A stretch of 17,081 nucleotides of DNA from Candidatus Hydrogenedentota bacterium (lineage in GTDB: Bacteria > Hydrogenedentota > Hydrogenedentia > Hydrogenedentiales > CAITNO01): assembly GCA_903922535.1 (NCBI GenBank), contig CAIXUF010000898.1, positions 1 through 17,081 on the forward strand, read 5' to 3'. Under the pieces are notes generated by a model. It searched no databases, had not been told where the DNA came from, and was given only the letters and a program-made list of their open reading frames with translations. The position numbers and the translations under genes are program-made. The stretch's first letter is position 1, and each line of letters starts with the position of its first letter. Positions 2,294 through 15,384 of the stretch are shown piece after piece.

Positions 2294-2379
2294 CGGAGAA
2301 CGGCGCTGCTTCAACCGTTTTGGCCTTGACCGGCCATTGTGGGTGATGTGGTGCCTGTCGTGTCGCATGCGCCCGGCAG

Positions 2380-2409
2380 TTGTATCCCCCCGTTCCAGCC
2401 TTCTATACT
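2380..2409 (+). promoter_or_regulatory. Candidate sigma70-type promoter for the GH51 operon
   Basis: TTGTAT (2380-2385) and TATACT (2404-2409) are separated by 18 bases and lie 43 bases before the ATG at 2452. The -10 box is a 5/6 match to TATAAT and the -35 box matches TTGACA at about 4/6. The position after a likely terminator and before the first gene of an operon supports it. Housekeeping promoters in this lineage are not known to me. Confidence 0.45.
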
Positions 2410-2451
2410 GATGCGGGGAGGAGGTTGGGCCAAAGAAGGAAAGCACAGGAC

Positions 2452-3147
2452 ATGCAGGCCGAAGACCGCGTTATTCATTTTTGTGTGGAGCTGATTCACC
2501 AGCCGTCGCCCCTCAACCGCGCCGCGCTTCAAAAACTGTATTTCGACCTTTCGCAGACCCGGGCCAACTATAACAGCATCGAGGTCAACGAGGGCGGACA
2601 GTCCCGGTTCTACTCGAACCGCGGCCAGGCGCAGTCTATACTTCTGTTTCTTCCCGACCGCGCGCTGGTCATCGAGGAATGGGCCGATCTGGCGTTGAGT
2701 GATTTCGAGGAGAAGGTGCGCGTTATCATGCCGCACCTGGGCGCGGCGCGGCAGATTGACCGCTTTATGGTCCACGCGGCCACCATACGCTCCACCTTTG
2801 CGCTGACCCATTTCACCGATTCCCGCGTGTTCCTGCTCGACGCCGCCTGCAGCTTGTCCGGGCGCATCACCCCGCATTTCCAGCGTCCCGTGGCCACCGG
2901 CGGCCTGCGCTTCGTCCTGCCCGAAACGCCCGAGCATCCCGGCGCGTTGCAGGTGAACATAGAATCCTTCCGCCACAGCAACGACGAGATGTTTGTCGAG
3001 GTCAAGGGCGTCTACGGACGCCAGCAGGTGCTGGTCGGCCAGGGTGAGGAGGTCATCCACAATCTGCGCGAGGTGCGGCACTTTGTCAGTGAGCGGGTGT
3101 ATCCGTTCTTGCAGCAGTTTGACCAGCCCTCCGGCGTTGATGCATGA
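2452..3147 (+). CDS. Unrecognised 231-aa protein, first gene of the GH51 operon
   Basis: The ATG at 2452 is preferred over the in-frame ATG at 2380 because the 24 residues before it look non-coding, the upstream DNA carries promoter-like boxes, and AGAAGGA (2434-2440) lies 11 bases before it. I do not recognise the family. The protein is soluble, with no signal peptide or membrane segment. It looks like a mixed alpha/beta fold with alternating strand-like stretches (SILLFLPDRALVIEEW, GGLRFVLPE, ALQVNIESFRH, EMFVEVKGVYG) and a helical C-terminus. Its stop overlaps the start of the GH51 gene as ATGA, so the two are almost certainly translated together. Translational coupling suggests a role linked to that enzyme, but nothing in the sequence names it. 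Confidence 0.8.
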   Translation: MQAEDRVIHFCVELIHQPSPLNRAALQKLYFDLSQTRANYNSIEVNEGGQSRFYSNRGQAQSILLFLPDRALVIEEWADLALSDFEEKVRVIMPHLGAARQIDRFMVHAATIRSTFALTHFTDSRVFLLDAACSLSGRITPHFQRPVATGGLRFVLPETPEHPGALQVNIESFRHSNDEMFVEVKGVYGRQQVLVGQGEEVIHNLREVRHFVSERVYPFLQQFDQPSGVDA

Positions 3148-4715
3148 GCCGTCCCGCCATTAACATTTGGCCCGCCCTGCCCAAATCCGTCATTCGGCCC
3201 GAGATCTACGGCCATTTCGCGGAGCATTTGGGACGCTGCATCTATGAGGGCGTCTGGGTGGGGGAGGGAGCGCGCCTTCCCAACGAAAACGGCCTGCGCC
3301 TCGACGTGCTTGCCGCGTTGAAACATCTGCGCGCGCCCGTCGTGCGCTGGCCCGGCGGCTGCTTTGCCGACGATTACCACTGGCGCGACGGCGTCGGGCC
3401 GCGTGCCGAAAGGCCCGTCACGGCAAACATCTGGTGGCGTCAGGGCGAGCCGAACGAATTCGGCACGGGCGAGTTCATGCGCTTCTGCCGCGCCCTGGGC
3501 TGCCAGCCCTACCTTTGCGCCAACGTCGGTTCCGGCAGCCCCCGCGAGGCACGCGACTGGGTCGAATACTGCAACTTCGGCGGCGATTCGTCCCTCTCCG
3601 CACTGCGCGCCCGGGACGGCAGTCCCGAGCCCCACGGTGTCAAGTATTGGGGCGTCGGCAACGAGAATTGGGCTTGCGGCGGACGCCTCACCGGCGGCGA
3701 CTACGCCAAAGAGTTCGCCCGCTACGGCAATTATATGAAGGCGATGGACCCCTCCGTCGAACTGGTCGCCTGCGGCGCCCAGCCCAGCGACCGCCACAGT
3801 TTTAAGTCCCCCTTTGCAGGGGGATTTAGGGGGATGTTGGGGCCGCCAACCGTGCCGGGAATGGCGGAACACAACCCCGTCCAGAACGACTGGAACCACG
3901 ACTTCTGCGCGGGCATGCAGCACCCCGAACTGATAGACCATATCGCGTTGCACCGCCACTTCTCACGCGGTCCGGGCAGGGATTTCAGCGATGGTGATTT
4001 CCGCGGCCTCTTTGCCGATGTCTTCACCCTGGAACGCGACCTGAAACTGACCGAGGCGATCCTGGCCTACCACTACCCCGACAAGTTCGTCGGGATTATG
4101 GTCGATGAATGGGGCATGTGGCACCCCGAAGCGCAGGTGGACAATGGCCTGGAGCAGGACCACACCCTGCGCGACGCCCTGCTGGCCGCCAGCGTGCTGA
4201 ACCTGTTCAACCGCTGGTCCCACCGCGTCACCATGGCCAATATCGCCCAGACCATCAACGTGCTGCAATGCCTGGCCATGACCCAGGGCGACCGCATGTT
4301 CCTGACCCCGACCTACTACGCCTTTGACATGCTGCGGCCGCACATGGGCGCGCGCGCCATCACCCACGAAACGGACAGCCCGTCCTACTCCGCCCATCCG
4401 GTGGGCCAGTCCGCCCCCTGCAACGTTCCGCTGCTCGACGCCAGCGTTTCCATGGCCGGAAAGAAAGTCCTCGTTACCGTGGTCAACCGCTCCCTCGACA
4501 CGGACCTGGAAACAGCGATTCAACTGCGCGAGTTTCGCGCCGCTTCGGTGTCCGCCAAGGTCATGGCGGCTCCCGACCCGCGGGCCACAAACAGTTTCGC
4601 GGTTCCCTCTGGAGTCGCCTCCAAACGAACCAAGGTCGATGCGGTCGAAGGCGGCACCATCGTTCACGTCTTTCCCCGTCATTCCCTGACGGCCCTGACC
4701 ATAACACTGGAATAG
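3144..4715 (+). CDS. GH51 alpha-L-arabinofuranosidase with an in-frame repeat insertion
   Basis: This 523-aa enzyme belongs to glycoside hydrolase family 51, retaining enzymes that release terminal alpha-L-arabinofuranose from arabinan, arabinoxylan or short arabino-oligosaccharides. The N-terminal barrel includes IYGHFAEHLGRCIYEGVWV and VVRWPGGCFADDYHWRDGVGP. The acid/base is Glu174 in WGVGNENW and the nucleophile is Glu322 in IMVDEWGMW. A C-terminal beta-sandwich ends in HVFPRHSLTALTITLE. There is no signal peptide, so it should act in the cytoplasm on imported oligosaccharides. In well-studied GH51 enzymes (Geobacillus E175/E294) the two glutamates are 119 residues apart; here the gap is 148. 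The extra 29 residues match a segment at about 219-247 that begins with a translated palindromic repeat. The start is fixed by the ATGA overlap with the upstream gene, and the next gene follows after 7 bases. Confidence 0.93.
   Translation: MSRPAINIWPALPKSVIRPEIYGHFAEHLGRCIYEGVWVGEGARLPNENGLRLDVLAALKHLRAPVVRWPGGCFADDYHWRDGVGPRAERPVTANIWWRQGEPNEFGTGEFMRFCRALGCQPYLCANVGSGSPREARDWVEYCNFGGDSSLSALRARDGSPEPHGVKYWGVGNENWACGGRLTGGDYAKEFARYGNYMKAMDPSVELVACGAQPSDRHSFKSPFAGGFRGMLGPPTVPGMAEHNPVQNDWNHDFCAGMQHPELIDHIALHRHFSRGPGRDFSDGDFRGLFADVFTLERDLKLTEAILAYHYPDKFVGIMVDEWGMWHPEAQVDNGLEQDHTLRDALLAASVLNLFNRWSHRVTMANIAQTINVLQCLAMTQGDRMFLTPTYYAFDMLRPHMGARAITHETDSPSYSAHPVGQSAPCNVPLLDASVSMAGKKVLVTVVNRSLDTDLETAIQLREFRAASVSAKVMAAPDPRATNSFAVPSGVASKRTKVDAVEGGTIVHVFPRHSLTALTITLE
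3801..3834 (+). repeat. CCCCC/GGGGG palindromic repeat inserted in a coding sequence
   Basis: TCCCCC (3807-3812), loop TTTGCA and GGGGGA (3819-3824) form a perfect hairpin. TTTAGGGGGA follows at 3825-3834. This matches the general form of the small repeats with TTTAGGGGGATTT motifs that are common between genes in many bacteria. Here it is read as FKSPFAGGFRGM, in frame, inside the GH51 barrel. The inserted segment probably extends to about 3884, judging by the spacing of the catalytic residues. Confidence 0.7.
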
Positions 4716-4722
4716 ACCGGCC

Positions 4723-5733
4723 ATGCAAGCGACGGGAGAACCGCTGGTCTCGGTACTCATGCCGGTATACAATGCCGCCGGTACCGTGGCGGCGGCGGTG
4801 GATTCCATTCAGGGACAGGATTTCGGCGCATGGGAAATGCTTGCCGTGGACGACGGCTCAACAGATGGTTCCACCGAAATTCTGGAGGGGCTGGCGCAAA
4901 AGGATCCCCGCATCCGCGTCCTTCGCATCAAGCACAGCGGCATCGTGGCGGCACTGCAAACATCCGCTGCCGACGCCAAAGGCACCTATTTGGCCCGCAT
5001 GGACGCGGACGACCTCGCCCGGCCCGAAAGGCTGCGCCTGCAACTGGACTGTTTTGCCTCAGACCCGGGTTTGGGCCTGTGCGGCGGGCGGGTGCGCATG
5101 ATGGGCGATTCCATCGGTTCCGGGCGGCGCCGCTATGAGGCATGGGTGAATGCGCTGACCAGCCACGAGGTCATCGTGCGCGAGATCTTCGTCGAATGCC
5201 CCCTGCCGCATCCGACCTTCATGATTTCGCGGAAGTGGTATGACCGGATCGGCGGCTATCAGGAATGCCCCTGGCCCGAAGACTACGACCTCGTCATGCG
5301 CTTGTGGCGGGTCGGCGCGCGCTTTGCCAAACCCGAAGCCGCCGTGTTGGACTGGCGCGACCATCCGGATCGTTTGTCCATGAACGATCCGCGGTATGAC
5401 GAGGCGGCCTTTCGCGCCCTCAAGCGCCATTACCTCGCCCAGTTCCCCGCAAGGGTGGGTCGGCCCCTGTACCAGTGGGGTGCCGGGGAAGTGGGCAAGC
5501 GCTGGCTGCGTGAAGGGAAGGGTGCAACTCCGGTCGCTGTTGTGGACATTAATCCCCGAAAGATAGGCCGAATTATTCATGGAGTGCGCGTGATTACCAA
5601 GGAACAACTGCCGCCTCCAGCCGCCTGCTTTGTTGTGGTGATGGTTGGCACACCGGGTGCCCGTGACGAAATCCGCGATCTGCTGAGTCCAATGGGATTT
5701 CTGGAATGCAAGGATTATTTGTTTTTTGCATAA
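4723..5733 (+). CDS. GT2 family glycosyltransferase with C-terminal Rossmann-like domain
   Basis: This is a 336-aa protein. Residues about 8-230 are a GT-A fold family 2 glycosyltransferase: VSVLMPVYNAAGTV, the nucleotide-binding DDGSTD (43-48), the metal-binding MDADD (93-97), and PEDYD with Glu186/Asp187 near the likely catalytic base. It should transfer a sugar from a nucleotide-sugar to a glycan or lipid acceptor; donor and acceptor cannot be read. There is no membrane segment, so it is cytosolic or peripheral. From about residue 250 a second domain begins with YQWGAGEVGKRW, followed by VAVVDINPRKIGR and IHGVRVI, a dinucleotide- or nucleotide-binding Rossmann-like pattern. It lies 7 bases after the GH51 stop without a clear Shine-Dalgarno site, which implies co-transcription. 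Confidence 0.88.
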   Translation: MQATGEPLVSVLMPVYNAAGTVAAAVDSIQGQDFGAWEMLAVDDGSTDGSTEILEGLAQKDPRIRVLRIKHSGIVAALQTSAADAKGTYLARMDADDLARPERLRLQLDCFASDPGLGLCGGRVRMMGDSIGSGRRRYEAWVNALTSHEVIVREIFVECPLPHPTFMISRKWYDRIGGYQECPWPEDYDLVMRLWRVGARFAKPEAAVLDWRDHPDRLSMNDPRYDEAAFRALKRHYLAQFPARVGRPLYQWGAGEVGKRWLREGKGATPVAVVDINPRKIGRIIHGVRVITKEQLPPPAACFVVVMVGTPGARDEIRDLLSPMGFLECKDYLFFA

Positions 5734-5754
5734 ACCCAGTTGACATTCCAACAA

Positions 5755-5776
5755 TCCCAAAGAATGGGAAGTTTTA
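5755..5776 (+). terminator. Weak possible terminator after the GT2 gene
   Basis: TCCCA (5755-5759), loop AAGAA and TGGGA (5765-5769) form a 5-bp stem followed by AGTTTTA. It lies 22 bases after the stop codon. The stem is short and the T-tract interrupted, so this is only a candidate. Confidence 0.3.
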
Positions 5777-5827
5777 GAGGAACCCCCGTCAAAGTGTACA
5801 CTGTGCAAATGGAGGATGGACCCAGCT

Positions 5828-5863
5828 TGGACAGTCGCTCGAATCGCCTGGCCCCACTGTCCA
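5828..5863. repeat. 8-bp inverted repeat upstream of the sigma factor gene
   Basis: TGGACAGT (5828-5835) and its exact complement ACTGTCCA (5856-5863) flank a 20-base loop. The right arm runs into the GTCCATACC tandem repeat. It could be an operator or a transcript hairpin; no protein partner can be inferred. Confidence 0.45.
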
Positions 5864-5885
5864 TACCGTCCATACCGTCCATAAC
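5859..5885 (+). repeat. Three tandem copies of GTCCATACC
   Basis: GTCCATACC, GTCCATACC and GTCCATAAC run head to tail at 5859-5867, 5868-5876 and 5877-5885. They lie in the 231-base gap (5734-5964) before the sigma factor gene. Apart from the adjoining inverted repeat, I saw nothing else convincing in that gap. The 61-codon open frame across it looks non-coding. Confidence 0.75.
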
Positions 5886-5964
5886 TGCAGTCAGTGGAAT
5901 TCCACGTGCGAAATGCCTGGAATAATCGCTGTAAACCTTTTATCCATGGAAAACGTTTGCCAAG

Positions 5965-6597
5965 ATGAGTGACATGAATTTAGCCCGTCCGGAAAGTTCG
6001 GGTACAGACGACACCGCGCTGGCGCTTGCCGCCGGGCGGGGCGATATGGCCGCATTAGAGGAAATCGTGCGGAAATATCAGGGTCGTGTGTACGCGACGG
6101 CCTACCGGGTGACCGGCAACCGCGAGGACGCGCTGGACGTCACGCAGGACGCGCTTGTCAAGGCCTATCAAAAGATAGGCACATGGGCGCCGACCGGAAA
6201 TTTTCTTTCGTGGCTTCTCCGCCTCACGACAAACCAGGCGATTGACCACCTGCGCCGCAGAAACCGGCGCAAGCAGGAGCCTTTGGACGAGGCCTTTGTC
6301 GGCCAGACCGAAGGTGCCGCCGTGGAGCCGACCGTGGAGAACACAGAAAGCGTGGTGCGCGGCCGGGAGATAGACGCCCGGGTACGCGGTGCGCTCGTGA
6401 AGCTGTCCAACATGCAGCGGACTGTCTTTGTGCTGCGCCATTTTGAAGAGTTTTCCCTGGCTGAAATTGCAGAAGAATTGGGCTGTACCGTCGGCAGTGT
6501 CAAGGTGCATCTGTTTCGCGCGTTGAAGAAGTTGCGCGTTGAACTCGATGACTTGGCGCCCGACACCAGCCAAAACGATCAGGACAAAATGAAATGA
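5965..6597 (+). CDS. ECF-type RNA polymerase sigma factor
   Basis: The protein has 210 aa and the two-domain layout of sigma70-family extracytoplasmic-function factors. Sigma region 2 lies at about residues 29-105 (ALEEIVRKYQGRVY, NREDALDVTQDALVKAYQ, then NFLSWLLRLTTNQAIDHLRRRNRR). Region 4 lies at about 145-197 (LSNMQRTVFVLRHFEEFSLAEIAEELGC, then VGSVKVHLFRALKKLR), the helix-turn-helix that reads the -35 element. It would direct RNA polymerase to a small regulon. The ATG at 5965 has no good Shine-Dalgarno site; ATG 5974 is an alternative. The stop overlaps the next gene (ATGA), a membrane protein placed and shaped like an anti-sigma factor. Its targets are unknown; the T2SS operon 1.1 kb downstream is a candidate only by position. 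Confidence 0.93.
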   Translation: MSDMNLARPESSGTDDTALALAAGRGDMAALEEIVRKYQGRVYATAYRVTGNREDALDVTQDALVKAYQKIGTWAPTGNFLSWLLRLTTNQAIDHLRRRNRRKQEPLDEAFVGQTEGAAVEPTVENTESVVRGREIDARVRGALVKLSNMQRTVFVLRHFEEFSLAEIAEELGCTVGSVKVHLFRALKKLRVELDDLAPDTSQNDQDKMK

Positions 6598-7643
6598 TCT
6601 TTTGGACGAAACGGCGAAAGGTGGAGGCGTTGTTGGCCGCGTCGCTGTACGAACCCCTGGTGGGCGCCGAGCGCCGGATGCTGGAAATCGTCCTGGAGGG
6701 CGACTCACAGCTCAGGTCTGAGGCGGAGGCGCTCGGTCGGGTGCGACGCATGGTGCGGCTCGAAACGCCCGAATTCACCGGCGATCTCGTTCCGCTGCTC
6801 CATGCGAGACTGCTCGAAGTCGTTCCCCAGCGGGGTGCATGGATTTCCTGGCGCTGGATTTCCGGTGCCACGGTGGCTGTGGGTGCGGGCGTGATTATGT
6901 TTGTTTCGGTCCTTGGCGGACCGGATTCTGTCACAGCGCCTTCGGTGAGGACGAGTCCGGTTGCCCCGCAAGTGGCACTTTCACCGGTGAAAGAGGCCAT
7001 TTCGAAAGCAAATGATCTGATGGCGTCAAGGAACCTGCTGGGCGCCCGGACCGTTTTGGACCGGGCACTTGCCAACAACCCCGGAAATGCGGCCGCAGGT
7101 GAGGCGCAGCAACTGCTGGCAAATCTCGAATTCAGCGAGTTTCAGCGTTATCCGGAAGCCTACGCCGCATACGACACGCTGCGCACCCGCTATCCGGAAG
7201 CCTTCATGAACAGCCCCGAAAGCGTTCAGCGCTTCAATCTACTGGATGAGGCCAGACGCTCGGGATACGCCCCCATGTACGCGCTGGCCGCAATCCGCAA
7301 CAATCCCGCCAATGCCTTCGAGCAGTGTGAACGGCTCGTGGCGCAGTATCCCGACTCACTGGTCGCCTCGATGGCGATGAATGAGATGCGCGTGATGGTC
7401 GGCCTTCCGGAACAGTTGGACGGCGCGTCGCATGTCGCGGCGCTGGAGCGCGTCAGAAACAAGTGCAGCGACCCCTCGGCGGTGGCCCAGGTGACGCTTG
7501 CCCTCGGCAATGTCTACAGGGACGACCTGTGCGACACGCGAAGGGCCCGGCTGTTCTACAATGAGGCCGCATCAAGCGGACATTCAGCCGTCGTGACCCG
7601 CGCCCAGGAAGCGTTGGCCAAACTTGCCATGGACACGCCATGA
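6594..7643 (+). CDS. Putative anti-sigma factor: single-pass membrane protein with TPR-like repeats
   Basis: This 349-aa protein is translationally coupled to the ECF sigma gene (ATGA overlap). Residues 1-80 have no signal peptide and include LYEPLVGAERRMLEIVLEGDSQLRSEAEAL. That stretch resembles the helical sigma-binding segment of anti-sigma factors, but the Cys/His zinc motif is missing. One membrane helix lies at about residues 88-108. The remaining 220 or so residues, probably periplasmic, look like tetratricopeptide-type helical repeats (KANDLMASRNLLGARTVLDRAL, then YPEAYAAYDTLRTRYPEAF, and ARLFYNEAASSGHSAVVTRAQEALAKLA). I infer that it holds the sigma factor at the membrane and senses a periplasmic partner. 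The layout and operon support this; no family match is certain. Confidence 0.7.
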   Translation: MIFWTKRRKVEALLAASLYEPLVGAERRMLEIVLEGDSQLRSEAEALGRVRRMVRLETPEFTGDLVPLLHARLLEVVPQRGAWISWRWISGATVAVGAGVIMFVSVLGGPDSVTAPSVRTSPVAPQVALSPVKEAISKANDLMASRNLLGARTVLDRALANNPGNAAAGEAQQLLANLEFSEFQRYPEAYAAYDTLRTRYPEAFMNSPESVQRFNLLDEARRSGYAPMYALAAIRNNPANAFEQCERLVAQYPDSLVASMAMNEMRVMVGLPEQLDGASHVAALERVRNKCSDPSAVAQVTLALGNVYRDDLCDTRRARLFYNEAASSGHSAVVTRAQEALAKLAMDTP

Positions 7644-7653
7644 CCCCTGCTGT

Positions 7654-7682
7654 TTGCTCTTCCGCTCCCGATGTGTTAACAT
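7654..7682 (+). promoter_or_regulatory. Candidate extended -10 promoter for the T2SS operon
   Basis: TTGCTC (7654-7659), 17 bases, then TAACAT (7677-7682) preceded by TGT, giving an extended -10 (TGnTAACAT). It lies 41 bases before the GTG start of gspE in the 80-base gap after the anti-sigma gene. The match is moderate, and read-through from the sigma operon is equally possible. Confidence 0.35.
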
Positions 7683-7723
7683 TTTACAGATAAACCACTT
7701 GCAAAGATTGGGAGCCCTCCTGA

Positions 7724-9478
7724 GTGCCAGTTTACAGCGGTCTTGAACAGTACCTAATCCGTCAGGGCTTGGTCGATGAGGCCCGCATGGACCGGGCCAA
7801 GAGTGAGGCGGCCAAAAGCGGGGCCAACCTAATCCCCGTCATCTCCCAGTTGGGATTCGCCCCCGCCGACAAGGTGTATCAGGCGCTCGCCAGCTTTTGC
7901 GAGATGCGTTTCGTTCTCCCGTCCAAGATGGAAATCCCCCCCGAACTCATCGAAAAGGTGCCCGCCCGCTTTGCCACCCACTACGGTTTCGTGCCCATTC
8001 AGGAGCGCAATGGAATCTTGGTGGTGGCCATCAGCGAACCGCTCAACGCCCAGTTGCTCGACGACATAAGGTTGGTGCTGAAGCGGCGGGTTGAGGCCGT
8101 CGTGACCACGCCCCAGGAGATTAGCCGGGTCACCAAGGACCTCTACGGCGTCGGCGCGGACACGATGGAGAAGATTCTCATCAACGCCGACGGCATGGAG
8201 GGCGTGGTCAATCTGGAAGGGACCCAGGTCAACTCCGACCTTGGCGACGACAGCATCGACGCGTCGATTATCAAATTCGTCAACGAACTCATACTTGAGG
8301 CAATACAGTCCGACACGACCGACATTCACATTGAGCCTTTTGAGGACAGTCTGCGGGTCCGGTACCGCATTGACGGCATCCTTCACCAGGCCCCGACCCC
8401 GCCGTCCATTCGCGGGTTCCACTCGGCCATCGTGTCCCGCATCAAGATCATGGCCAATCTGAACATCGCCGAGAAGCGGCTCCCCCAGGACGGAAAGATT
8501 CTGGCGTCGTTTGGCGACGCCCATTACGATCTTCGCGTGTCCATTCTGCCCACCCCCCACGGCGAATCGGTGAACATCCGCATACTGAGCCGCACCTCCA
8601 TGGCGCTCACCCTGGACCAGTTGGGTTTCCTGCCGGAGGACATGGGCGAATTCAGCCGCCTTATCAGCAAGCCCCACGGGATTATCCTAGTCACCGGCCC
8701 CACCGGCAGCGGAAAAACCACCACCCTGTACGCCGCCCTGGCCAAGTTGAACCAGGTGGATCGCAAGATTATTACCATAGAGGACCCGATCGAGTACCAG
8801 TTGGCCGGGATTTCCCAGATGCAGGTGCAGCCCAGGATCGGCTTCGACTTTGCGCTGGGGCTGCGGTCCATGCTGCGCCATGATCCCGACATCATGTTGG
8901 TCGGCGAAATCCGCGACCATGAGACCGCGGAAATGGCGATCCGCTCCAGCCTCACGGGCCACCTCGTGCTGAGCACGCTGCACACAAACGATTCCGCGGG
9001 CGCCGTGACCCGTCTGGTGGACATGGGCGTCGAGCCCTTCCTTATCTCAAGCACCATGATCGCCTCCATAGCCCAGCGCCTGGTCCGGCGGATTTGCCGC
9101 CATTGCGGCGCCCCGCACGAACCCGACGCCGTCGTCCTGCTCCATGAATTCGGCATCGGCCCCCAGCACATGAAGGGCGGAAAGTTCCGCATGGGCGCCG
9201 GTTGCGACGAATGCCGCCACACCGGCTACCGTGGCCGCCTGGCCGTCTACGAAATGCTGGCCTTTACCGAGCAGATAAAGGAGATGACCGTGCACCGGGC
9301 AAACGCGCTCGACATCAAGAAGGTCGCCGTGCGCAACGGAATGAAGACGCTGCGCGCCTCGGGCTGGCAGCGCATCTGGTCCGGCGACACCACGCTTGAG
9401 GAGGTCCTTCGCGTGACGGCCGATTCAGAGTCGATTGGCTTCGAACTGGATGGCGGCCATGCCCCAGTTCCGGTATGA
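7724..9478 (+). CDS. gspE: Type II secretion ATPase GspE
   Basis: This 584-aa cytoplasmic AAA-like ATPase powers pseudopilus assembly. Residues about 1-150 are a GspE/MshE N-terminal domain that docks on GspL. The ATPase core has Walker A GPTGSGKTTT (325-334), an Asp box (ITIEDPIEYQL), Walker B IMLVGEIRD (390-398, Glu395) and a His box TGHLVLSTLHTN from residue 411. A zinc-binding tetracysteine follows, C458-x2-C461 and C494-x2-C497, as in GspE/PilB but not PilT. The start is GTG 7724, with GGGAG (7710-7714) 9 bases upstream. It is the first gene of the T2SS operon, and gspF overlaps its end. PilB is the alternative reading, but the GspK and GspL genes downstream favour T2SS. Confidence 0.95.
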   Translation: MPVYSGLEQYLIRQGLVDEARMDRAKSEAAKSGANLIPVISQLGFAPADKVYQALASFCEMRFVLPSKMEIPPELIEKVPARFATHYGFVPIQERNGILVVAISEPLNAQLLDDIRLVLKRRVEAVVTTPQEISRVTKDLYGVGADTMEKILINADGMEGVVNLEGTQVNSDLGDDSIDASIIKFVNELILEAIQSDTTDIHIEPFEDSLRVRYRIDGILHQAPTPPSIRGFHSAIVSRIKIMANLNIAEKRLPQDGKILASFGDAHYDLRVSILPTPHGESVNIRILSRTSMALTLDQLGFLPEDMGEFSRLISKPHGIILVTGPTGSGKTTTLYAALAKLNQVDRKIITIEDPIEYQLAGISQMQVQPRIGFDFALGLRSMLRHDPDIMLVGEIRDHETAEMAIRSSLTGHLVLSTLHTNDSAGAVTRLVDMGVEPFLISSTMIASIAQRLVRRICRHCGAPHEPDAVVLLHEFGIGPQHMKGGKFRMGAGCDECRHTGYRGRLAVYEMLAFTEQIKEMTVHRANALDIKKVAVRNGMKTLRASGWQRIWSGDTTLEEVLRVTADSESIGFELDGGHAPVPV

Positions 9479-10673
9479 GGTAAAGAAAGGCCCCGGGGCG
9501 GTCTCCAAGGGGGTCATTGAGGCGGAGAACCAGCGCTCCGCCATCGCGCGGCTGCGCGACATGGGCTATTTTCCCATCCGCGTCGAGGAGGCCCGGGCGG
9601 AGGAGAAAAAGGACACGCTGCGCGAGGCCCTCGCGCGGGTCCGCCTCAAGGACCGCAACCTGTTCTTCCGCCAGTTGGCCAATCTGCTCGAGTCGGGGAT
9701 GATGATCACGCGCGCCCTGCGCACCCTGGTTGAGCAGACCGAAAACCCCAAACTGGTGAAGATTATCGAGCAGCTTCGCGACGACGTCCAGAAGGGAAAC
9801 AGCCTGGCCGAGGCGATGGAAAAGCATCCCAGCGTGTTCCCCAACATGTATTGCAGCCTTGTCCGGGCCGGCGAGGCCGGCGGCATGCTCGAAGAGGTGC
9901 TTTGGCGCATCTGTGCCTTTGGCGAGCAGGAGGAGGAACTGCGCGGCAAGGCCGTTGGCGCCATGGTGTATCCCGCCTTCCTGACCACCGTCGGCTCCAT
10001 CGCCATCTTCATCCTGGTCTCCTTTGTGTTTCCCAAATTTATCAAGGTCTTCGAGGAGTTTCACGCCCAACTGCCCCTGCCCACGGTCATCGTGATGGCC
10101 ATATGCAAGTTCATGGGAATGTGGTGGTGGGCCGTGCTGGCCGGGCTCGTGCTTTTCGCGGTGGCACTGCTGCGGTGGCTGCGCACCGAAGACGGTCGGC
10201 GCAGGCTGCACGGGTTCGTGCTCAGGGTGCCCGTGGTCAAGTCGGTTGTGCTGAAATACGAAATGGCGAAATTCGCAAGGACGCTCGGCACGCTCATGGA
10301 CAATGGCGTGCCGATCCTCACCTCCATAAAGATCACCGCCGAAACCATGACCAACGTGCTCATCCGCGACGAGGTCAGCCAGATGCACATCGGCGTCACC
10401 GAGGGCGACAGTCTGAGCGAGACCATGCGGCGCGGAAAGTTTTTCCCGCCCATGGTGATGAGCATGTTTGCCGTGGGCGAGGAGAGCGGACGGGTCGGCA
10501 CGGTGGCAAAGCGCGTTGCGGACGCGTATGATTTGGAGGTGGACCGCGCGGTAAAGGCGCTGACCGCGCTTTTCGAGCCGCTGCTGATTGTCGTCATGGG
10601 TGTGATCGTGGGTTTCCTCGTGATAGCCATGCTTCTGCCCATGCTGAATCTGAGTTCAACCGTCGGAGCCTGA
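9459..10673 (+). CDS. gspF: Type II secretion inner-membrane platform protein GspF
   Basis: The protein has 404 aa from ATG 9459 (MPQFRYEV, the usual GspF opening). In-frame ATGs at 9435 and 9450 add a few residues and lack typical sequence. The gene overlaps gspE by 20 bases. Two T2SSF helical domains (residues about 67-190 and 270-395) share motifs such as FFRQLANLLESGMMITRAL and KFARTLGTLMDNGVPILTSI, each followed by an E-G-SL--AM/TM segment. Three membrane helices lie at about 173-192, 221-241 and 374-396. GspF is thought to pass the GspE ATPase motion to pseudopilin insertion. The key residues and length are normal for the family. A 72-base gap separates it from gspG. Confidence 0.95.
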   Translation: MPQFRYEVKKGPGAVSKGVIEAENQRSAIARLRDMGYFPIRVEEARAEEKKDTLREALARVRLKDRNLFFRQLANLLESGMMITRALRTLVEQTENPKLVKIIEQLRDDVQKGNSLAEAMEKHPSVFPNMYCSLVRAGEAGGMLEEVLWRICAFGEQEEELRGKAVGAMVYPAFLTTVGSIAIFILVSFVFPKFIKVFEEFHAQLPLPTVIVMAICKFMGMWWWAVLAGLVLFAVALLRWLRTEDGRRRLHGFVLRVPVVKSVVLKYEMAKFARTLGTLMDNGVPILTSIKITAETMTNVLIRDEVSQMHIGVTEGDSLSETMRRGKFFPPMVMSMFAVGEESGRVGTVAKRVADAYDLEVDRAVKALTALFEPLLIVVMGVIVGFLVIAMLLPMLNLSSTVGA

Positions 10674-10704
10674 CGGCTGTCCCCGACTCGTCGCTCCGGT
10701 GCGT

Positions 10705-10710
10705 TATACT
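10705..10710 (+). promoter_or_regulatory. -10-like box upstream of gspG
   Basis: TATACT lies 35 bases before the gspG ATG, in the only sizeable gap (10674-10745) inside the T2SS cluster. It is the same hexamer as the candidate -10 box at 2404. No good -35 box is seen 16-18 bases upstream, so this may be an activator-dependent promoter or chance. Confidence 0.25.
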
Positions 10711-10745
10711 GAATGTGGCGCAGGCAAACAGTGGAGAGTACTGTC

Positions 10746-11168
10746 ATGAAACCGAACGCGGGTTTTACCCTTATCGAACTCATTCTGGTCACGGTGATCA
10801 TCGGCATTCTGGCCGGCATGGTGGCCCTCAACTATAGCGGCCGCGTACGGGACACGCAGGTCCGCGCCGCAAAGGGCGACATTGCCAGCTACAGCAACGC
10901 CGTCGACATGTTCGCCCTGGACAACAACGACGAGTATCCGAAGTCGCTCAATGACCTGTCCGGGGGAAAGAGGAACTACGTCCGCGAGGTGCGGCCCGAC
11001 CCATGGGGCAACCCTTACATCTACACACCGCCCACGGACATGCTCAAGGCCGACTACAAGATCTTCTCGGCCGGGCCCGACGGCGTTCCGGGGAATGAGG
11101 ACGACATCACATCAAGTTCGGCGGACCCGTCCGCGAAGACCGGCCAGGGTAACACAAAGTCAAAATAG
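10746..11168 (+). CDS. gspG: Major pseudopilin GspG
   Basis: This 140-aa protein starts at ATG 10746, with GGAGAG (10733-10738) upstream. MKPNAG|FTLIEL is a class III prepilin leader: cleavage after Gly6 by prepilin peptidase, Phe7 methylated, and Glu at mature position 5. A hydrophobic helix spans residues 7-30. The body matches GspG: AAKGDIASYSNAVDMFALDNNDEYP, then RPDPWGNPYIY, and the calcium-loop region SAGPDGVPGNEDD. It polymerises into the pseudopilus that pushes substrates through the secretin. The segment between DEYP and DPWGNP is shorter than in proteobacterial GspG, which usually has a TTEQGL-type stretch there. A 25-residue polar tail follows the calcium region. The gene is flanked by a 72-base gap and a strong hairpin, so its dosage may be set separately. 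Confidence 0.93.
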   Translation: MKPNAGFTLIELILVTVIIGILAGMVALNYSGRVRDTQVRAAKGDIASYSNAVDMFALDNNDEYPKSLNDLSGGKRNYVREVRPDPWGNPYIYTPPTDMLKADYKIFSAGPDGVPGNEDDITSSSADPSAKTGQGNTKSK

Positions 11169-11189
11169 CCGCGGCCATGATGCCGCGGC
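11168..11189 (+). promoter_or_regulatory. Strong intercistronic hairpin after gspG
   Basis: GCCGCGGC (11168-11175), loop CATGAT, GCCGCGGC (11182-11189): an 8-bp all-GC stem starting at the last base of the gspG stop codon. No T-tract follows, so it is not a typical terminator. It could protect the upstream mRNA from exonucleases or reduce read-through into gspH. Confidence 0.6.
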
Positions 11190-11201
11190 CTGGCGCAGCC
11201 C

Positions 11202-11756
11202 ATGATTGCACTGAAAACACGCAAAATCCGTTCGGCCAGGGAAGGTTCCGTGCCGGGACCGCAGGTCCGAACGGGTTTTACCTTTCTGGAACTGATCGTC
11301 GTGCTGGCACTGCTCGCGATCATTTCGGCAATCATTGTGCCCGTCTACGTCCGTTCCATGAACGGCATCCAGATGCGCAGCGCCCGAAACGATCTTATCG
11401 GAACGCTCCGGTACATCCAGGAACTGTCCGTGCAGGAGTCCAGGGAATACCGGCTCTACATTGACGCCGTGAACGGCCTCTACTGGGTGAAGGTAATGGC
11501 CAAGCTGGTGGACGGCGACAAGATCTTTGAGCCCGTCGAGGAGACCTGGGGCGCGGTGACAAAGCTGCCGGACCAGTTTGTCATCACCAATGTAAAGGCC
11601 CGCAAGGACCGGGGCGACAGGGCCCTGTTCATAGCCTGCCAGCCCAACGGGGCCTCCGATCACGCGGTGATTTCCGTGCGCGACGACCACGCAAAGAAAA
11701 GCAAGTACAAGATCGTCGTGCTCGGGCCGATCGGCAAGATTGAGGTCCAGCAATGA
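11202..11756 (+). CDS. gspH: Minor pseudopilin GspH (GspH/FimT type)
   Basis: The 184-aa protein has a prepilin leader ending RTG|FTFLEL, with Glu30 at mature position 5, a hydrophobic helix to about residue 48, then a beta-rich globular domain. It would be a minor pseudopilin near the pseudopilus tip. Position between gspG and gspI fits gspH, though H-type pseudopilins diverge and the letter rests partly on order. With ATG 11202 the leader is 25 residues and there is no Shine-Dalgarno site. GTG 11250, in frame, would give a 9-residue leader and is preceded by AGGGAAGG (11238-11245) only 4 bases away, so it is a real alternative start. The stop overlaps the gspI start as ATGA. Confidence 0.8.
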   Translation: MIALKTRKIRSAREGSVPGPQVRTGFTFLELIVVLALLAIISAIIVPVYVRSMNGIQMRSARNDLIGTLRYIQELSVQESREYRLYIDAVNGLYWVKVMAKLVDGDKIFEPVEETWGAVTKLPDQFVITNVKARKDRGDRALFIACQPNGASDHAVISVRDDHAKKSKYKIVVLGPIGKIEVQQ

Positions 11757-12226
11757 AGCGCCGCGCCAAAGGCGGCTATATCTTTGTCGAGACGCTCGTC
11801 GCCATGGCGATCCTGAGCGTCAGCGCGATCGTGATCCAGGAGTCGATTCGGCAGGCCATCCTCGCCAGAGCCCAGGCCATGGACTACACCACGGCCCGTT
11901 TTCTGCTGGAAAAGGTCATGGCCGACCGCATGCTGGTCTTTGAACAGCCCGAGGGGGAGGGAAAAGGAGTTTTCGACGCCCCCTTCGAGCGTTTTGCCTA
12001 CACCTGGGAGGTGAAGCGGGTGGAGATTCCCATGCCCGATCTTCCCCCAACGATGACGCCCGAGGATGTCAAATTCTTCAAGGACAACTACATCAAGTAC
12101 ATCGGAAAACTGGGCGCAAAGGTGACCTGGTCGAGGGCTGGCGTGCCGTTCACCGCCGCCGCCGAGACACTGCTCAGAAAAGACCTGGTATGGATGCCGC
12201 CCGCAGAGCCTGGAGCGCCGGCATGA
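11753..12226 (+). CDS. gspI: Minor pseudopilin GspI
   Basis: The 157-aa protein opens with MKRRAKGG|YIFVETLVAMAIL: a short basic leader, Gly8 at the cleavage site, Glu13 at mature position 5 and a V-TLVAMAILS helix typical of GspI. The first mature residue is Tyr instead of the usual Phe or Met. The globular part is short, with an EVKRVEIP strand and a longer helical insertion (PEDVKFFKDNYIKYIGKLG) before VTW. GspI, J and K form the tip complex that starts pseudopilus assembly. ATGA overlaps at both ends (gspH and gspJ) show tight translational coupling. Confidence 0.85.
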   Translation: MKRRAKGGYIFVETLVAMAILSVSAIVIQESIRQAILARAQAMDYTTARFLLEKVMADRMLVFEQPEGEGKGVFDAPFERFAYTWEVKRVEIPMPDLPPTMTPEDVKFFKDNYIKYIGKLGAKVTWSRAGVPFTAAAETLLRKDLVWMPPAEPGAPA

Positions 12227-12969
12227 GCACCGGGGTGCACAAATGCACACGGCGTCTCCGGCAGGGGTTCACCCTGGCCGAACTGCTGGTCGCCACCACG
12301 CTGTTGAGCATCGTGATGAGTTCCGTCTATGTCCTGTTCAATTCCTCCCTGAGGGCGTGGCGGACCGTGGAATCCGGTTTTGACGCCCATCTTGAGGCCA
12401 GAGCCTTCATGTCCATATTCTCCCATGAGTACGGAAATCTTGTGGCCCGGGCAAGCCACCTCTTCGAGGGCAAGGATGACACCTTGACCATGTTCGTTGT
12501 CGCCCAGCCCGAAAACCTTGAACAGGGGCAAAGCCGGCGGCTCATGCGCGTGGAGTATTCCTACAACCGCGGCAAGAACGAGGTGATCCGCGAGGAGGCC
12601 TTTGTCGAATCAGCCCTGCCCCAGGTGCCCACGGATGGACAGCGGATCAGGGAGGAACGCATGAAGCTCAGCAAGAAGCACCGGACGGTGCTGGTGAACA
12701 ATGCCACTGCCTTTCGCATTCGCTACATTTGGGTGCCGCTTGCTGAAGGCTGGGACCCCAAGACGCCTCCTGAGCCGGTGCCGCCCGTCTACATGGACGT
12801 TCACAGGCAGCGGTGGGGGCTGCCACAGGCCGTGGAGATTACCCTGGAGGTGACAAATCCCAAGGACCCGGAGGACAGGTACACCGTCACCTCGACCTTT
12901 CCCGCGCGCGCGCCCTCCAACAGAATGCTGCGTTCGTCGCTCGACATGATGTGGGAGGCCAAACTGTGA
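12223..12969 (+). CDS. gspJ: Minor pseudopilin GspJ
   Basis: This 248-aa protein is read from ATG 12223, which overlaps the gspI stop as ATGA; the upstream in-frame ATG at 12190 lies inside gspI. The leader ends RRLRQG|FTLAELLVATTLLSI, with Gly15 at cleavage and Glu20 at mature position 5. A large beta-rich globular domain follows (MRVEYSYNRGKNEVIREE, FRIRYIW, AVEITLEVTNP), with the length and late V-I-L-V strands typical of GspJ. A proline-rich loop (PKTPPEPVPPVYMDVH) is inserted before the last strands. It should join GspI and GspK in the pseudopilus tip. Its stop overlaps the gspK start by one base (TGATG). Confidence 0.87.
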   Translation: MSTGVHKCTRRLRQGFTLAELLVATTLLSIVMSSVYVLFNSSLRAWRTVESGFDAHLEARAFMSIFSHEYGNLVARASHLFEGKDDTLTMFVVAQPENLEQGQSRRLMRVEYSYNRGKNEVIREEAFVESALPQVPTDGQRIREERMKLSKKHRTVLVNNATAFRIRYIWVPLAEGWDPKTPPEPVPPVYMDVHRQRWGLPQAVEITLEVTNPKDPEDRYTVTSTFPARAPSNRMLRSSLDMMWEAKL

Positions 12970-13907
12970 TGCGGCGGCAGCAGGGATTTGTGCTCATGTG
13001 CGTGCTGTGGGTGGTCGCCATGCTCACCGTCATCACCCTCGGTTTTGGGCACCGGGCCGCCCTTGATCGCCGCGCCGCCGCCTACGCGCTGGATCACTCC
13101 GTGGCCATGGCCGCCGCGCGCGGCGCCGTGGAGCGGGGCATTGTCGAAATTGCCAACCGCGGCGTCAAGATGCGCATGCTTCCGCTCAGCATGCGCGGGG
13201 GCACTCATCTCGGCGAAGCCTGGGCAAATCCCGTCAATATTTACAAGGAGGGCAACCTCACGGCCGATGATTCCCTGAAGCACGACGAGGCTTCCTACAT
13301 CATCACCGACGAGGATCGCTTCATCAACATAAACTCCGCACCGAAAGACCTGCTCGAGGGCATCAAGGCAATGGACCGCACGCTCGTGCGCCGCATCTGG
13401 TCCCGGCGAACCAAGGAAGAGAACACCGAAGAGGGTGTGGTCCCCTTCAACTCCATCGAGGAACTGCGCTATATGCGCGGCATGGACGACGACGAATGGT
13501 TTGGAACTGCCGGAAAGACGGGACTGAAGGATTTAATCACCGTTTGGGGCGGGACGGGGATCAACGTGAACACGGCGTCCAAGGCCGTGCTCATGTGCGT
13601 TCCGGGCGTGCAGGAGGGCGACATAGACACCATTCTGGGCTATCGCGCCGGACACGACGGCAAGCTAAACACGGCCGATGACCGTGGATTCAGCAGCCTC
13701 GATGACATGAGCGCGAAGACCGGCGTGCAGGGCGCCACACGCGAGGCGCTGAACACTTATTGCACCTGTGATTCCTCGTTCTTTAAGATTACAGGATTGG
13801 CCACGCGGCGCGCGGGGCGCGTCCGGGCCGTTTGCTCGGCAGTTGTCATATTCGGCGAAGGAGGAATGCAAACCGTGGACTGGCAGGAGAAGGCGCTTGG
13901 CTCATAA
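12969..13907 (+). CDS. gspK: Minor pseudopilin GspK
   Basis: This 312-aa protein starts at ATG 12969, sharing one base with the gspJ stop. MRRQQG|FVLMCVLWVVAML is a prepilin leader in which mature position 5 is Cys, not Glu. Lack of Glu5 is a known hallmark of GspK, the tip pseudopilin. The body contains two helix-hairpin-helix-like units of the T2SSK family (FININSAPKDLL and INVNTASKAVLMCVPGV), separated by a large helical insertion. An Asp-rich segment (DGKLNTADD) may bind metal. It caps the pseudopilus with GspI and GspJ and may contact substrates. Its 3' end overlaps gspL by 11 bases. Confidence 0.92.
   Translation: MRRQQGFVLMCVLWVVAMLTVITLGFGHRAALDRRAAAYALDHSVAMAAARGAVERGIVEIANRGVKMRMLPLSMRGGTHLGEAWANPVNIYKEGNLTADDSLKHDEASYIITDEDRFININSAPKDLLEGIKAMDRTLVRRIWSRRTKEENTEEGVVPFNSIEELRYMRGMDDDEWFGTAGKTGLKDLITVWGGTGINVNTASKAVLMCVPGVQEGDIDTILGYRAGHDGKLNTADDRGFSSLDDMSAKTGVQGATREALNTYCTCDSSFFKITGLATRRAGRVRAVCSAVVIFGEGGMQTVDWQEKALGS
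13885..13889 (+). promoter_or_regulatory. Ribosome binding site that fixes the TTG start of gspL
   Basis: AGGAG lies 7 bases before TTG 13897. No ATG or GTG sits at a suitable distance in this frame, and the conserved N-terminal strand (ERISVLHFDG) begins a few codons later. Confidence 0.65.
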
Positions 13908-15384
13908 GTCTGAAAGAATCAGTGTGCTCCATTTCGACGGGCACGGCGTGTCCTGGCTGCGGGCCGAACGGTCCCCAGCGGGCCTTGACGTGCTCGAACA
14001 GGACTGCGAGCGCGGCGACTGGACAGGGGGGGACGCCCTGGAACAGGCCCTCAAAGCGTTTGTGCAGCGCCATGGCATTGAGGCGGACACGGTCCTGTCT
14101 GTGTTCCCCCGCTACGACGTCACCACCCGCATCCTGACCCTGCCCAGCCACGACCACGATGAAATCGCAGGTATGATACGGCTGAGCGCCGAGGAATTCG
14201 TCCCCTACGGCGCCGAGGAATTGATCATAGACCATTCCGTGCTGCGCCTGCTGCCCAGCGGCGAGTCGTCCGTCTTTGCCGTGCTGGCGCACCGCGACAT
14301 GGTGGAGCGCCACCTGTCCGTGCTGTCCGCGGCGGGCGTCGAACCGCGGCAGGTGTGCCTCAGTTCCGCCTGCCTCGTCAATTGCGCGCTGGCCGCCGAA
14401 CTGAAGGGCCGCTTTGGCGTGGTGCATCTGGCCTCCGGCGGCTTTGAATTGGCCGTGGTGAACGACGGCCGTCTGGCCTACAGCCGCGGTGTGGCGTCAG
14501 GCCAGGATTGGGAAACAGTGGCCAAAGACCCGGCCGCAGGCGGCGGAGTCGGGCTGATTCAGGAAAGCCCCGTCGATGAGCTTGCCGCGGAGATTCGCAG
14601 TTCCCTGGCCTCCTACCGGCGCGATTCGGCGGATGGCGAGGGCGTTGAGATGCTCTATGTCGGCTGCGACGGCGTGGACGTGTTCGCGCTGTGCCGGCAC
14701 CTGTCAGACGCGCTGGGCATGGAGTGCCGTCCGGCCTCCTTTGGGCGCGACGTAGGCGTGCAGGGCAAGGCGCTGGACCGCGCCCCCCTGGCGGCCTTGG
14801 GCGCACTGCTCGGCCTCGAAGGCGCCGTTCCGGTGACCATTAGCCTTTTGCCCGAGCGTATCGCGGCGCGGCGTCAGATGCAGAGCACAAAGCGGCTCGC
14901 CGTCCGCGTCGCCCTGTTCGCCGTCGGCCTCTCCATTGCCCTGGGCGCGTTGTACGGGCAGGCCGTGCATGTCCGGAAACAGGTCATAGCCGAACTGGAG
15001 GGCCGGGTGCAGGCAATGGAGCCCAACGCGCGCGGCATTGCCGAGAAACGGGAGCAACTGACCATACTGCGACGCCAGGTGGACAGCAAGGGTTCCATTG
15101 TCGAACAGTTGGCCGCCGTGGTGGATGCACTGCCCGAGGGCCGCACCAACATCACCCGGATCAGCCTGGACCGCGAGGATGCGATCGACGTCTGGGGCCG
15201 GGCCAAATCGGTCGATGACGTGGCGGAGTTTGCCCAGAACCTGCGCAACAAAGCCTCCGCGGCGGGTCTGGCCTTTTTCGCGCATGCGCGCAGGGTTTAC
15301 GAACAGAAGGCGGTGGAGCAGGAGTCGCCCGTGTTCACCTATCAGGTGGACATACCGTTGCACGAGGAAAAAGATGCGAAGTGA
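13897..15384 (+). CDS. gspL: GspL, inner-membrane T2SS protein (PilM-like plus PilN-like)
   Basis: This 495-aa protein is read from a rare TTG start, 11 bases before the end of gspK. Residues about 5-330 form the cytoplasmic actin-like (ASKHA/PilM-like) domain that binds GspE: SERISVLHFDG, then LPSHDHDEIAGMIRLSAEEFVPYGAEELIIDHSVL, and later GRFGVVHLASGGFELAVV. A single membrane helix lies at about 334-355 (LAVRVALFAVGLSIALGALYG). The periplasmic part starts with a coiled coil (VIAELEGRVQAMEPNARGIA) and ends in a ferredoxin-like PilN/GspL fold (INITRI-type LPEGRTNITRISLDRE, then VDDVAEFAQNLRN). It couples the ATPase to GspM and the GspC-like protein. In-frame upstream codons back to 13768 overlap gspK and are rejected. 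Confidence 0.87.
   Translation: MAHKSERISVLHFDGHGVSWLRAERSPAGLDVLEQDCERGDWTGGDALEQALKAFVQRHGIEADTVLSVFPRYDVTTRILTLPSHDHDEIAGMIRLSAEEFVPYGAEELIIDHSVLRLLPSGESSVFAVLAHRDMVERHLSVLSAAGVEPRQVCLSSACLVNCALAAELKGRFGVVHLASGGFELAVVNDGRLAYSRGVASGQDWETVAKDPAAGGGVGLIQESPVDELAAEIRSSLASYRRDSADGEGVEMLYVGCDGVDVFALCRHLSDALGMECRPASFGRDVGVQGKALDRAPLAALGALLGLEGAVPVTISLLPERIAARRQMQSTKRLAVRVALFAVGLSIALGALYGQAVHVRKQVIAELEGRVQAMEPNARGIAEKREQLTILRRQVDSKGSIVEQLAAVVDALPEGRTNITRISLDREDAIDVWGRAKSVDDVAEFAQNLRNKASAAGLAFFAHARRVYEQKAVEQESPVFTYQVDIPLHEEKDAK

Follow-up and report, generated by a model that had tools for sequence, protein, structure and literature searches.

A palindromic repeat unit in frame within a GH51 alpha-L-arabinofuranosidase gene of Hydrogenedentota and its copies in related genomes

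Introduction

Palindromic repeats lying in frame within unrelated protein genes have been described as Rickettsia palindromic elements (RPEs) and as Wolbachia palindromic repeats, and they are tolerated by at least one tested enzyme (PMC2229807, PMC10969869). RPEs are reported to be 105 to about 150 bp long, nearly half of them being located within genes (PMC2229807, PMC10969869), and a CGTC end has been reported for those of R. conorii (PMC3733652). In-frame fusions are also reported for the ERIC/IRU, Nemis and YAPL MITEs, with lengths of 107-168 bp (PMC2229807), and coding palindromes, in the form of perfect inverted repeats of up to 284 bp in protein genes, for the mitochondria of Nematomorpha (PMC6649704). 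REPIN/REP doublets are described as high-copy, inverted elements with a constrained spacer length and a loose spacer sequence (PMC3116915), and Y1 transposases are held to mobilise REPs (PMC3116915, PMC3733652). The GTAG and CGTC superfamilies of REPs comprise short palindromes and doublets, some lying wholly within ORFs, where they encode 20-30 residues or more, and intragenic REPs occur in free-living species too (PMC3733652).

We analysed a stretch of 17,081 nucleotides from a Candidatus Hydrogenedentota bacterium, hereafter the window. An earlier note on this DNA had suggested that a mobile small repeat entered a loop of a GH51 enzyme and was tolerated as protein, and this suggestion was largely borne out by empty sites in homologues, by copies of the repeat in relatives and by a low-confidence loop in the structure model.

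The GH51 Gene and Its In-Frame Insertion

The window contains a coding sequence for a protein of 523 aa (3144..4715), which is a GH51 alpha-L-arabinofuranosidase according to both its domains and its fold; this gene and all the parts of it described below lie on the forward strand. Pfam analysis returned PF06964 (E 9e-39) and PF22848, the best solved relative was 2vrk (E 9e-104), and the comparison of the protein model with 2vrk by Foldseek gave TM values of 0.86/0.91. The codons for E174 (3663..3665) and E322 (4107..4109), which we take from established GH51 knowledge to be the acid/base and the nucleophile respectively, are intact, both catalytic glutamates being kept.

The spacing of 148 between E174 and E322 is as the earlier note had counted it. 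A spacing of 119 is known for the GH51 enzymes of Geobacillus and Clostridium, and the excess of about 29 codons, or 87 bp, had been assigned to an insertion at 3798-3884, which had to be corrected. A spacing of 123 was found in six of the ten proteins checked, the ones without the insert, so that 25 residues, and not 29, belong to the insertion; the other 4 of the 29 extra codons are an ordinary difference from Geobacillus. The insertion, at what we call site 1, is 75 bp long and is located at about 3795..3869, with ends uncertain by a few bases, corresponding to residues ~218-242 (HSFKSPFAGGFRGMLGPPTVPGMAE). These values were derived from segment lengths, from the number of bases opposite the syntenic locus L001 and from DNA alignment with loci L001, L002 and L008.

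A scan of genome contigs returned at least 79 GH51 loci, the close ones among the matches listed being L001, L002 and L008. They belong to three Candidatus Hydrogenedentes draft genomes of 6.3-7.6 Mb (G001, G002 and G003) with the isolate names Loclat, AlinenLipids and MJ-2014, presumably lake isolates. L001 is syntenic with the window from 2375 to 14780 and its site 1 is empty: in blastn searches 2375-3779 and 3882-4397 were aligned, leaving 102 window bases opposite 27, a net difference of 75 bp. At the protein level 66 homologues were aligned, hand-picked to span the best 120 of 7,999 (8,000 candidates were scored, and the list of 120 contains the query). The segment from C210 to W250 counts 41 residues in the window and 16 in 41 of the 66 proteins, and it has at most 17 in all 58 proteins outside the clade P0001-P0008, none of which carries the insert. 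Within this clade four of the eight members are carriers, the window counted, with segments of 41 (P0001), 49 (P0002), 34 (P0004) and 32 residues (P0005), and the segment has 16 residues in P0003, P0006, P0007 and P0008. Homologues without the segment, as the earlier note had anticipated, were thus found, and its residues are not common across genera.

Anatomy of the Repeat Unit

The inserted 25 residues are encoded around a palindromic unit of 39 nt (3799..3837), GTTTTAAGT-CCCCC-TTTGCA-GGGGG-ATTTA-GGGGG-ATGT, whose core hairpin TCCCCC/GGGGGA occupies 3807..3824. As originally noticed, the palindromic motif lies in the coding sequence without a stop, since 3807-3833 (TCCCCC-TTTGCA-GGGGGA-TTTA-GGGGG) reads KSPFAGGFRGM in frame. 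The single-stranded DNA of 3790-3900 folds at -24.6 kcal/mol versus a shuffle mean of -18.5 (sd 2.28, n=200), and one shuffle in 200 folds as well as the native sequence. The remainder of the insertion after the unit (3838..3869) is alignable in L002 and L008 and absent in L001. A source for this tail was sought and none was found, the repeat family does not account for these final 32 bases of the insertion, and no target duplication could be defined from the GH51 comparison (L001, L002, L008) or from that of CoaE described below.

Within the window, counting with a loose pattern returned three matches, two of them at the same place, versus 1.4 expected; 39 of 200 shuffles reach three, and the core does not recur elsewhere in the window at up to 1 mismatch. 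As the motif is not rare in this count, the statistical support comes instead from the copies in the genomes of relatives. Two further features of the window were recorded: a short direct repeat of CCGTCCATA at 5857-5883, in the gap ahead of the next gene, and two neighbouring reading frames at 1-693 and ~819-2216, which we take to be formylglycine-enzyme-like, with similar C-terminal sequence, the first being cut by the window edge.

A sample of units was collected from the top-listed loci among the matches of G001-G003, a non-random choice, together with the window, L001, L002 and L008. The 380 raw matches corresponded to 313 distinct contexts and, once shifted hits were merged, to 239 units, a few of which resemble chance matches. 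The resulting family consensus is GTCTTAAGT-CCCCC-TTTGAA-GGGGG-(ATTTA or second hairpin)-GGGGG-ATGT. Pairing over at least 4 bp is possible in 48 of the 57 distinct second-hairpin segments versus 13.9% of shuffles in the same search, and the second hairpin looks as if it were modular or structurally selected. Its stems vary between copies (GCCGC, GGCCC, GACCGCC and GGTTCGC, for example in L121, L126 and L138), with pairing mostly kept. An inverted tail partner was present within 75 nt for 145 of the 239 units versus 15 of 225 at a control offset, the spacers of the pairs being mostly 18-21 or 26-30 nt; 92 units have no inverted partner and 2 are at an edge. The window's unit is single and of the short ATTTA form. 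An Rfam search on five sources (window, L008, L121, L126 and L138) returned four matches with E values of at most 1, none of which reached its gathering score; the match of mir-671 to a unit pair (L121 3022-3124), also below its gathering score, was taken as a chance hairpin likeness and discarded.

Distribution of the Repeat in Related Genomes

The pattern GTCCCCCTTTGAAGGGGG, allowing up to 3 mismatches, returned 307, 186 and 157 matches in G001, G002 and G003, against 6, 14 and 6 for a reversed-pattern control; the counts of GTCCCCCTTTGAAGGGGG cover both strands, and one palindromic place may be counted twice. The repeat, present as one copy in the window, is thus not unique, in agreement with what had been proposed, and is dispersed across genomes of a Hydrogenedentota clade, as shown in these relatives. 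Three more distant Hydrogenedentota gave 7, 3 and 5 matches versus 8, 2 and 7 for the reversed control, which is the control level. The 17-base core, with at most 1 mismatch, was matched in 29 of 68 genomes of the phylum, 21 of which had at least 8 matches (strands summed). Among 41 genomes of other groups, reached via their GH51 loci and assigned by record title (one is titled only 'bacterium'), two were matched, with 1-2 one-mismatch matches each and three in total. For the exact core, the earlier statement that such repeats are common between genes in many bacteria therefore finds no support in these 41 genomes.

Other In-Frame Captures

Ten of the 239 units (in the window, L008 twice, L133, L153, L171, L194, L226, L227 and L233) were called coding by a codon-usage test, which is rough, having failed to detect the units at site 2 in L001 and L002 and having accepted L133; units that it did not call coding are not thereby proven to be intergenic. 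L133 (DUF559) passed the test but was excluded as a capture, its unit being at the N-terminus. An empty site was available for comparison in four cases, GH51 site 1, GH51 site 2, CoaE and the M23 peptidase.

Site 2 of GH51 lies in the C-terminal domain (4362..4439, residues 407-432) and is empty in the window, where it has 26 residues. It has 36-72 residues in P0002-P0007, so that inserts occur at the protein level in six of the eight clade members, tandem in P0003 and P0005; the site was compared at the DNA level in L001, L002 and L008. The CoaE of G001 (L194:1118-2005, reverse strand) contains an in-frame insert of 85 residues between 'NPM' and 'LFDGL', which comprises two repeat cores, one of which has a full tail. 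This insert is missing from the eight other genomes aligned, and a ninth (G008) matches the family unbroken, outside the alignment. CoaE is normally essential, and the insert-bearing copy is the sole CoaE found in the draft genome G001. In the M23 peptidase, HIPLNPPSKGDL occurs in G002 and G003, and the site is empty in G001 and in four more distant genomes.

Each of the four copies found of a Wzy_C-type (O-antigen-ligase-like) protein, two from G001, one from G002 and one from G003, contains units; an additional unit is present in the G003 copy, and none of the four is empty. Units collect in a hydrophilic loop of this protein (L301, L226 and L300), and L301 also bears a stretch of PPPQPSPCQREGEETSP, which presumably resembles another coding repeat. 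One unit was found between the domains of an HZS_alpha/FGE protein (L227), at a single locus and without an empty-site comparison.

The consensus unit is open in four of its six frames, which makes coding captures survivable, and a TTCGAA variant takes out one TGA of a further frame, as read from the sequence itself. The readings KSPFEGG, IPLNPPSKGDL, TTPFKGGL and VPLRRG derive from different frames and strands. There is no single conserved encoded peptide, as KSPFEGG, IPLNPPSKGDL, TTPFKGGL and VPLRRGWPEGPGDV all occur.

Structure Model and Selection

The AlphaFold2 model of the window's GH51 (A3) showed a mean pLDDT of 88.1 and a pTM of 0.90. Residues 216-243, located between strand 206-209 and helix 250-257, are the only stretch of at least 3 residues with pLDDT <50 in the whole model; blocks 21-30 and 71-80 also have a mean pLDDT of just 63-65. 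The loop position expected for the segment agrees with this model, and the site-1 insert is loop-like and probably floppy on an otherwise normal GH51 fold, low AlphaFold confidence being a proxy for disorder only. From the order of the fold, the loop, coming after a barrel strand, should face the catalytic side.

At 131 near-invariant columns the window's GH51 has 3 changes, and the proteins outside the clade have a median of 2 (range 0-13), a comparison that favours the latter since the columns were defined on them. The dN/dS of the GH51 body was 0.064-0.122 over six pairs, from the four clade genes with DNA out of eight clade members, values that indicate purifying selection. Over the insert (26 codons, three pairs) pN was 0.244, 0.277 and 0.330 versus pS of 0.295, 0.355 and 0.400, showing on these small numbers an almost neutral drift. 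Because its catalytic residues are intact and its body is under purifying selection, the window's GH51 is very probably still functional, and the idea that this copy is on the way to loss lacks support on the same grounds.

Some other members of the clade deserve mention. The P0006 protein carries both E174Q and E322Q, with the remainder of the protein intact and no site-1 insert, and is probably inactive. C73 is changed in P0005-P0008 and C178 in P0004, P0007 and P0008, both positions being near-invariant among the remaining aligned GH51 proteins.

Number of Insertions and Mobility

The history of the two sites was examined on an IQ-TREE phylogeny of 20 rows, from which the insert columns were excluded. 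Resolution within the clade is poor on this tree and its bootstrap did not converge; the minimum number of changes on it was three for site 1 and two for site 2. We lean towards one old insertion at site 1 with later losses or small rearrangements, as suggested by the tails after the unit, which are alignable among the window, L002 and L008; losses in P0003 and P0007 are then implied. A somewhat smaller but still substantial probability is assigned to repeated independent insertions at one permissive loop. These would account for the at least three changes at site 1, for the cost of 15.6 log-likelihood units when the carriers (P0001, P0002, P0004 and P0005) are forced into a clade, for the different flanking residues of the insert in P0002, and for the additional units at GH51 site 2 and in the Wzy_C loop of some relatives. 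However, the alignable tails speak against such a hotspot, as do the poor resolution of the clade and the AU test, in which the forced clade was not rejected (p-AU 0.08).

The search for IS-type genes covered PF01797, with 13, 8 and 5 Y1 transposase matches in G001, G002 and G003. The stretches surrounding 25 of the 26 matches, all but G001:C939, contained no full unit; several of these stretches end at contig ends, and a tail-like string was found once each in L274 and L187. Y1 matches were present in 17 of the 21 high-copy genomes and in 37 of the 47 others (p=1), and Y1 and unit counts correlate weakly (rho 0.26, p 0.03). Four genomes (G008, G056, G060 and G064) have 12-80 core matches and no Y1 match, which the drafts may lack. 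RAYT/Y1 was therefore rejected as the mobiliser, no full unit being linked to Y1 in the stretches covered and the presence of Y1 not following that of the units, with the weak correlation of counts remaining.

As a tentative idea, which we regard as rather doubtful in its entirety, the units might form a separate REP superfamily, in which a fixed CCCCC/GGGGG hairpin is joined to an exchangeable second hairpin conserved in structure, moved by an agent other than Y1/RAYT, accepted by permissive gene loops and hitting one enzyme repeatedly. If this were true, GH51 would represent a running natural experiment in which random peptides are inserted into a working fold.

Proposed Explanation and Alternatives

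Taken together, we consider it highly probable that a dispersed REP-like repeat of a Hydrogenedentota clade was inserted in the GH51 barrel loop and tolerated. A copy of the repeat would have entered the loop that connects strand 206-209 with helix 250-257, and it could persist because the insertion lengthened the gene by a multiple of three and brought no stop into that frame. As the intact frame and the model suggest, the insert would be translated as a flexible loop of 25 residues; the enzyme would keep working, the insert drifting almost neutrally, and the repeat would spread as inverted pairs or single units through some mobiliser.

Loop lengths vary at this position even outside the clade (7-17 residues), as they would if the segment were an ordinary lineage-specific extension with a chance likeness to the repeat. 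This is very improbable, since the segment contains the 39-nt unit of the family, its hairpin preceded by GTTTTAAGT and followed by ATGT, and this unit is met again at site 2, within further proteins and in numerous other places of the relatives' genomes. An assembly artefact, in which a repeat-induced chimera put the repeat into the gene, deserves equally little credence: several units in the draft genomes do sit no more than 70 bases away from a contig end, but synteny with L001 holds on both sides of the insertion, the unit is found at the same place in three other records, with an alignable tail in both of the two with DNA, and the reading frame is kept in all carriers.

It is also improbable, though less so, that the insert is adaptive and alters substrate access or partner binding. 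The inferred orientation of the loop, which should face the catalytic side, and its retention in several species would fit such a role, whereas the nearly neutral evolution of the insert, its absence from half the clade and the reading of the same DNA in other frames in other proteins, by which no single peptide is favoured, argue against it. Relaxed constraint, with a GH51 gene that is degenerating in this clade and would accept any change, is an unlikely cause. The double substitution of the catalytic glutamates in P0006 and the 6-8 changes of P0005-P0008 at the 131 near-invariant columns point in that direction, but the window itself is close to the median of the proteins outside the clade in such changes and the dN/dS of the body is low. 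Insertion of the dispersed repeat followed by tolerance remains the reading that we prefer.

Coding palindromes are best known from Rickettsia and Wolbachia, both of them obligate intracellular bacteria. The present ones are found in environmental bacteria with large draft genomes, and in an enzyme family for which crystal structures are available. The GH51 clade contains enzymes that bear inserts at two sites, that lack them or in which they are expanded; together with the 85-residue insert of CoaE, these would make tolerance, cost and repeat mobility directly measurable.

Comparison with Known Repeat Systems

No report on this repeat family was found among the matches listed from the open-licence PMC literature, where only work on Challenger Deep sediment surfaced for repeats in Hydrogenedentes, and of the unit sequence and peptide strings only the short TCCCCCTTT occurs among the matches listed. 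Like RPEs, the Hydrogenedentota unit is in frame in unrelated genes (GH51, CoaE and M23 with empty sites, Wzy_C without). Unlike them, it has a core of ~30-49 nt, uses several frames and was called coding in just 10 of the 239 sampled units, and the CGTC end occurs in just 21 of 227 left flanks. The likeness to Rickettsia palindromic elements drawn in the earlier note is thus retained for behaviour and not for membership.

The fusions of ERIC/IRU, Nemis and YAPL are comparable in being in frame and are set apart by their described length, and the palindromes of Nematomorpha share the coding position but are mitochondrial, perfect and up to 284 bp long. As for REPINs, the Hydrogenedentota units are high-copy in the relatives' genomes and form inverted doublets at constrained spacing; unlike REPINs, no full unit was found near Y1/RAYT genes and the unit is in two parts, with an exchangeable second hairpin. 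Membership of the GTAG or CGTC REPs was rejected on the left flanks, with GTAG in 1 and CGTC in 21 of 227, and on the right-end consensus ATGT. The in-frame capture of small palindromic repeats is already known, and the Hydrogenedentota family belongs to neither the GTAG nor the CGTC REPs.
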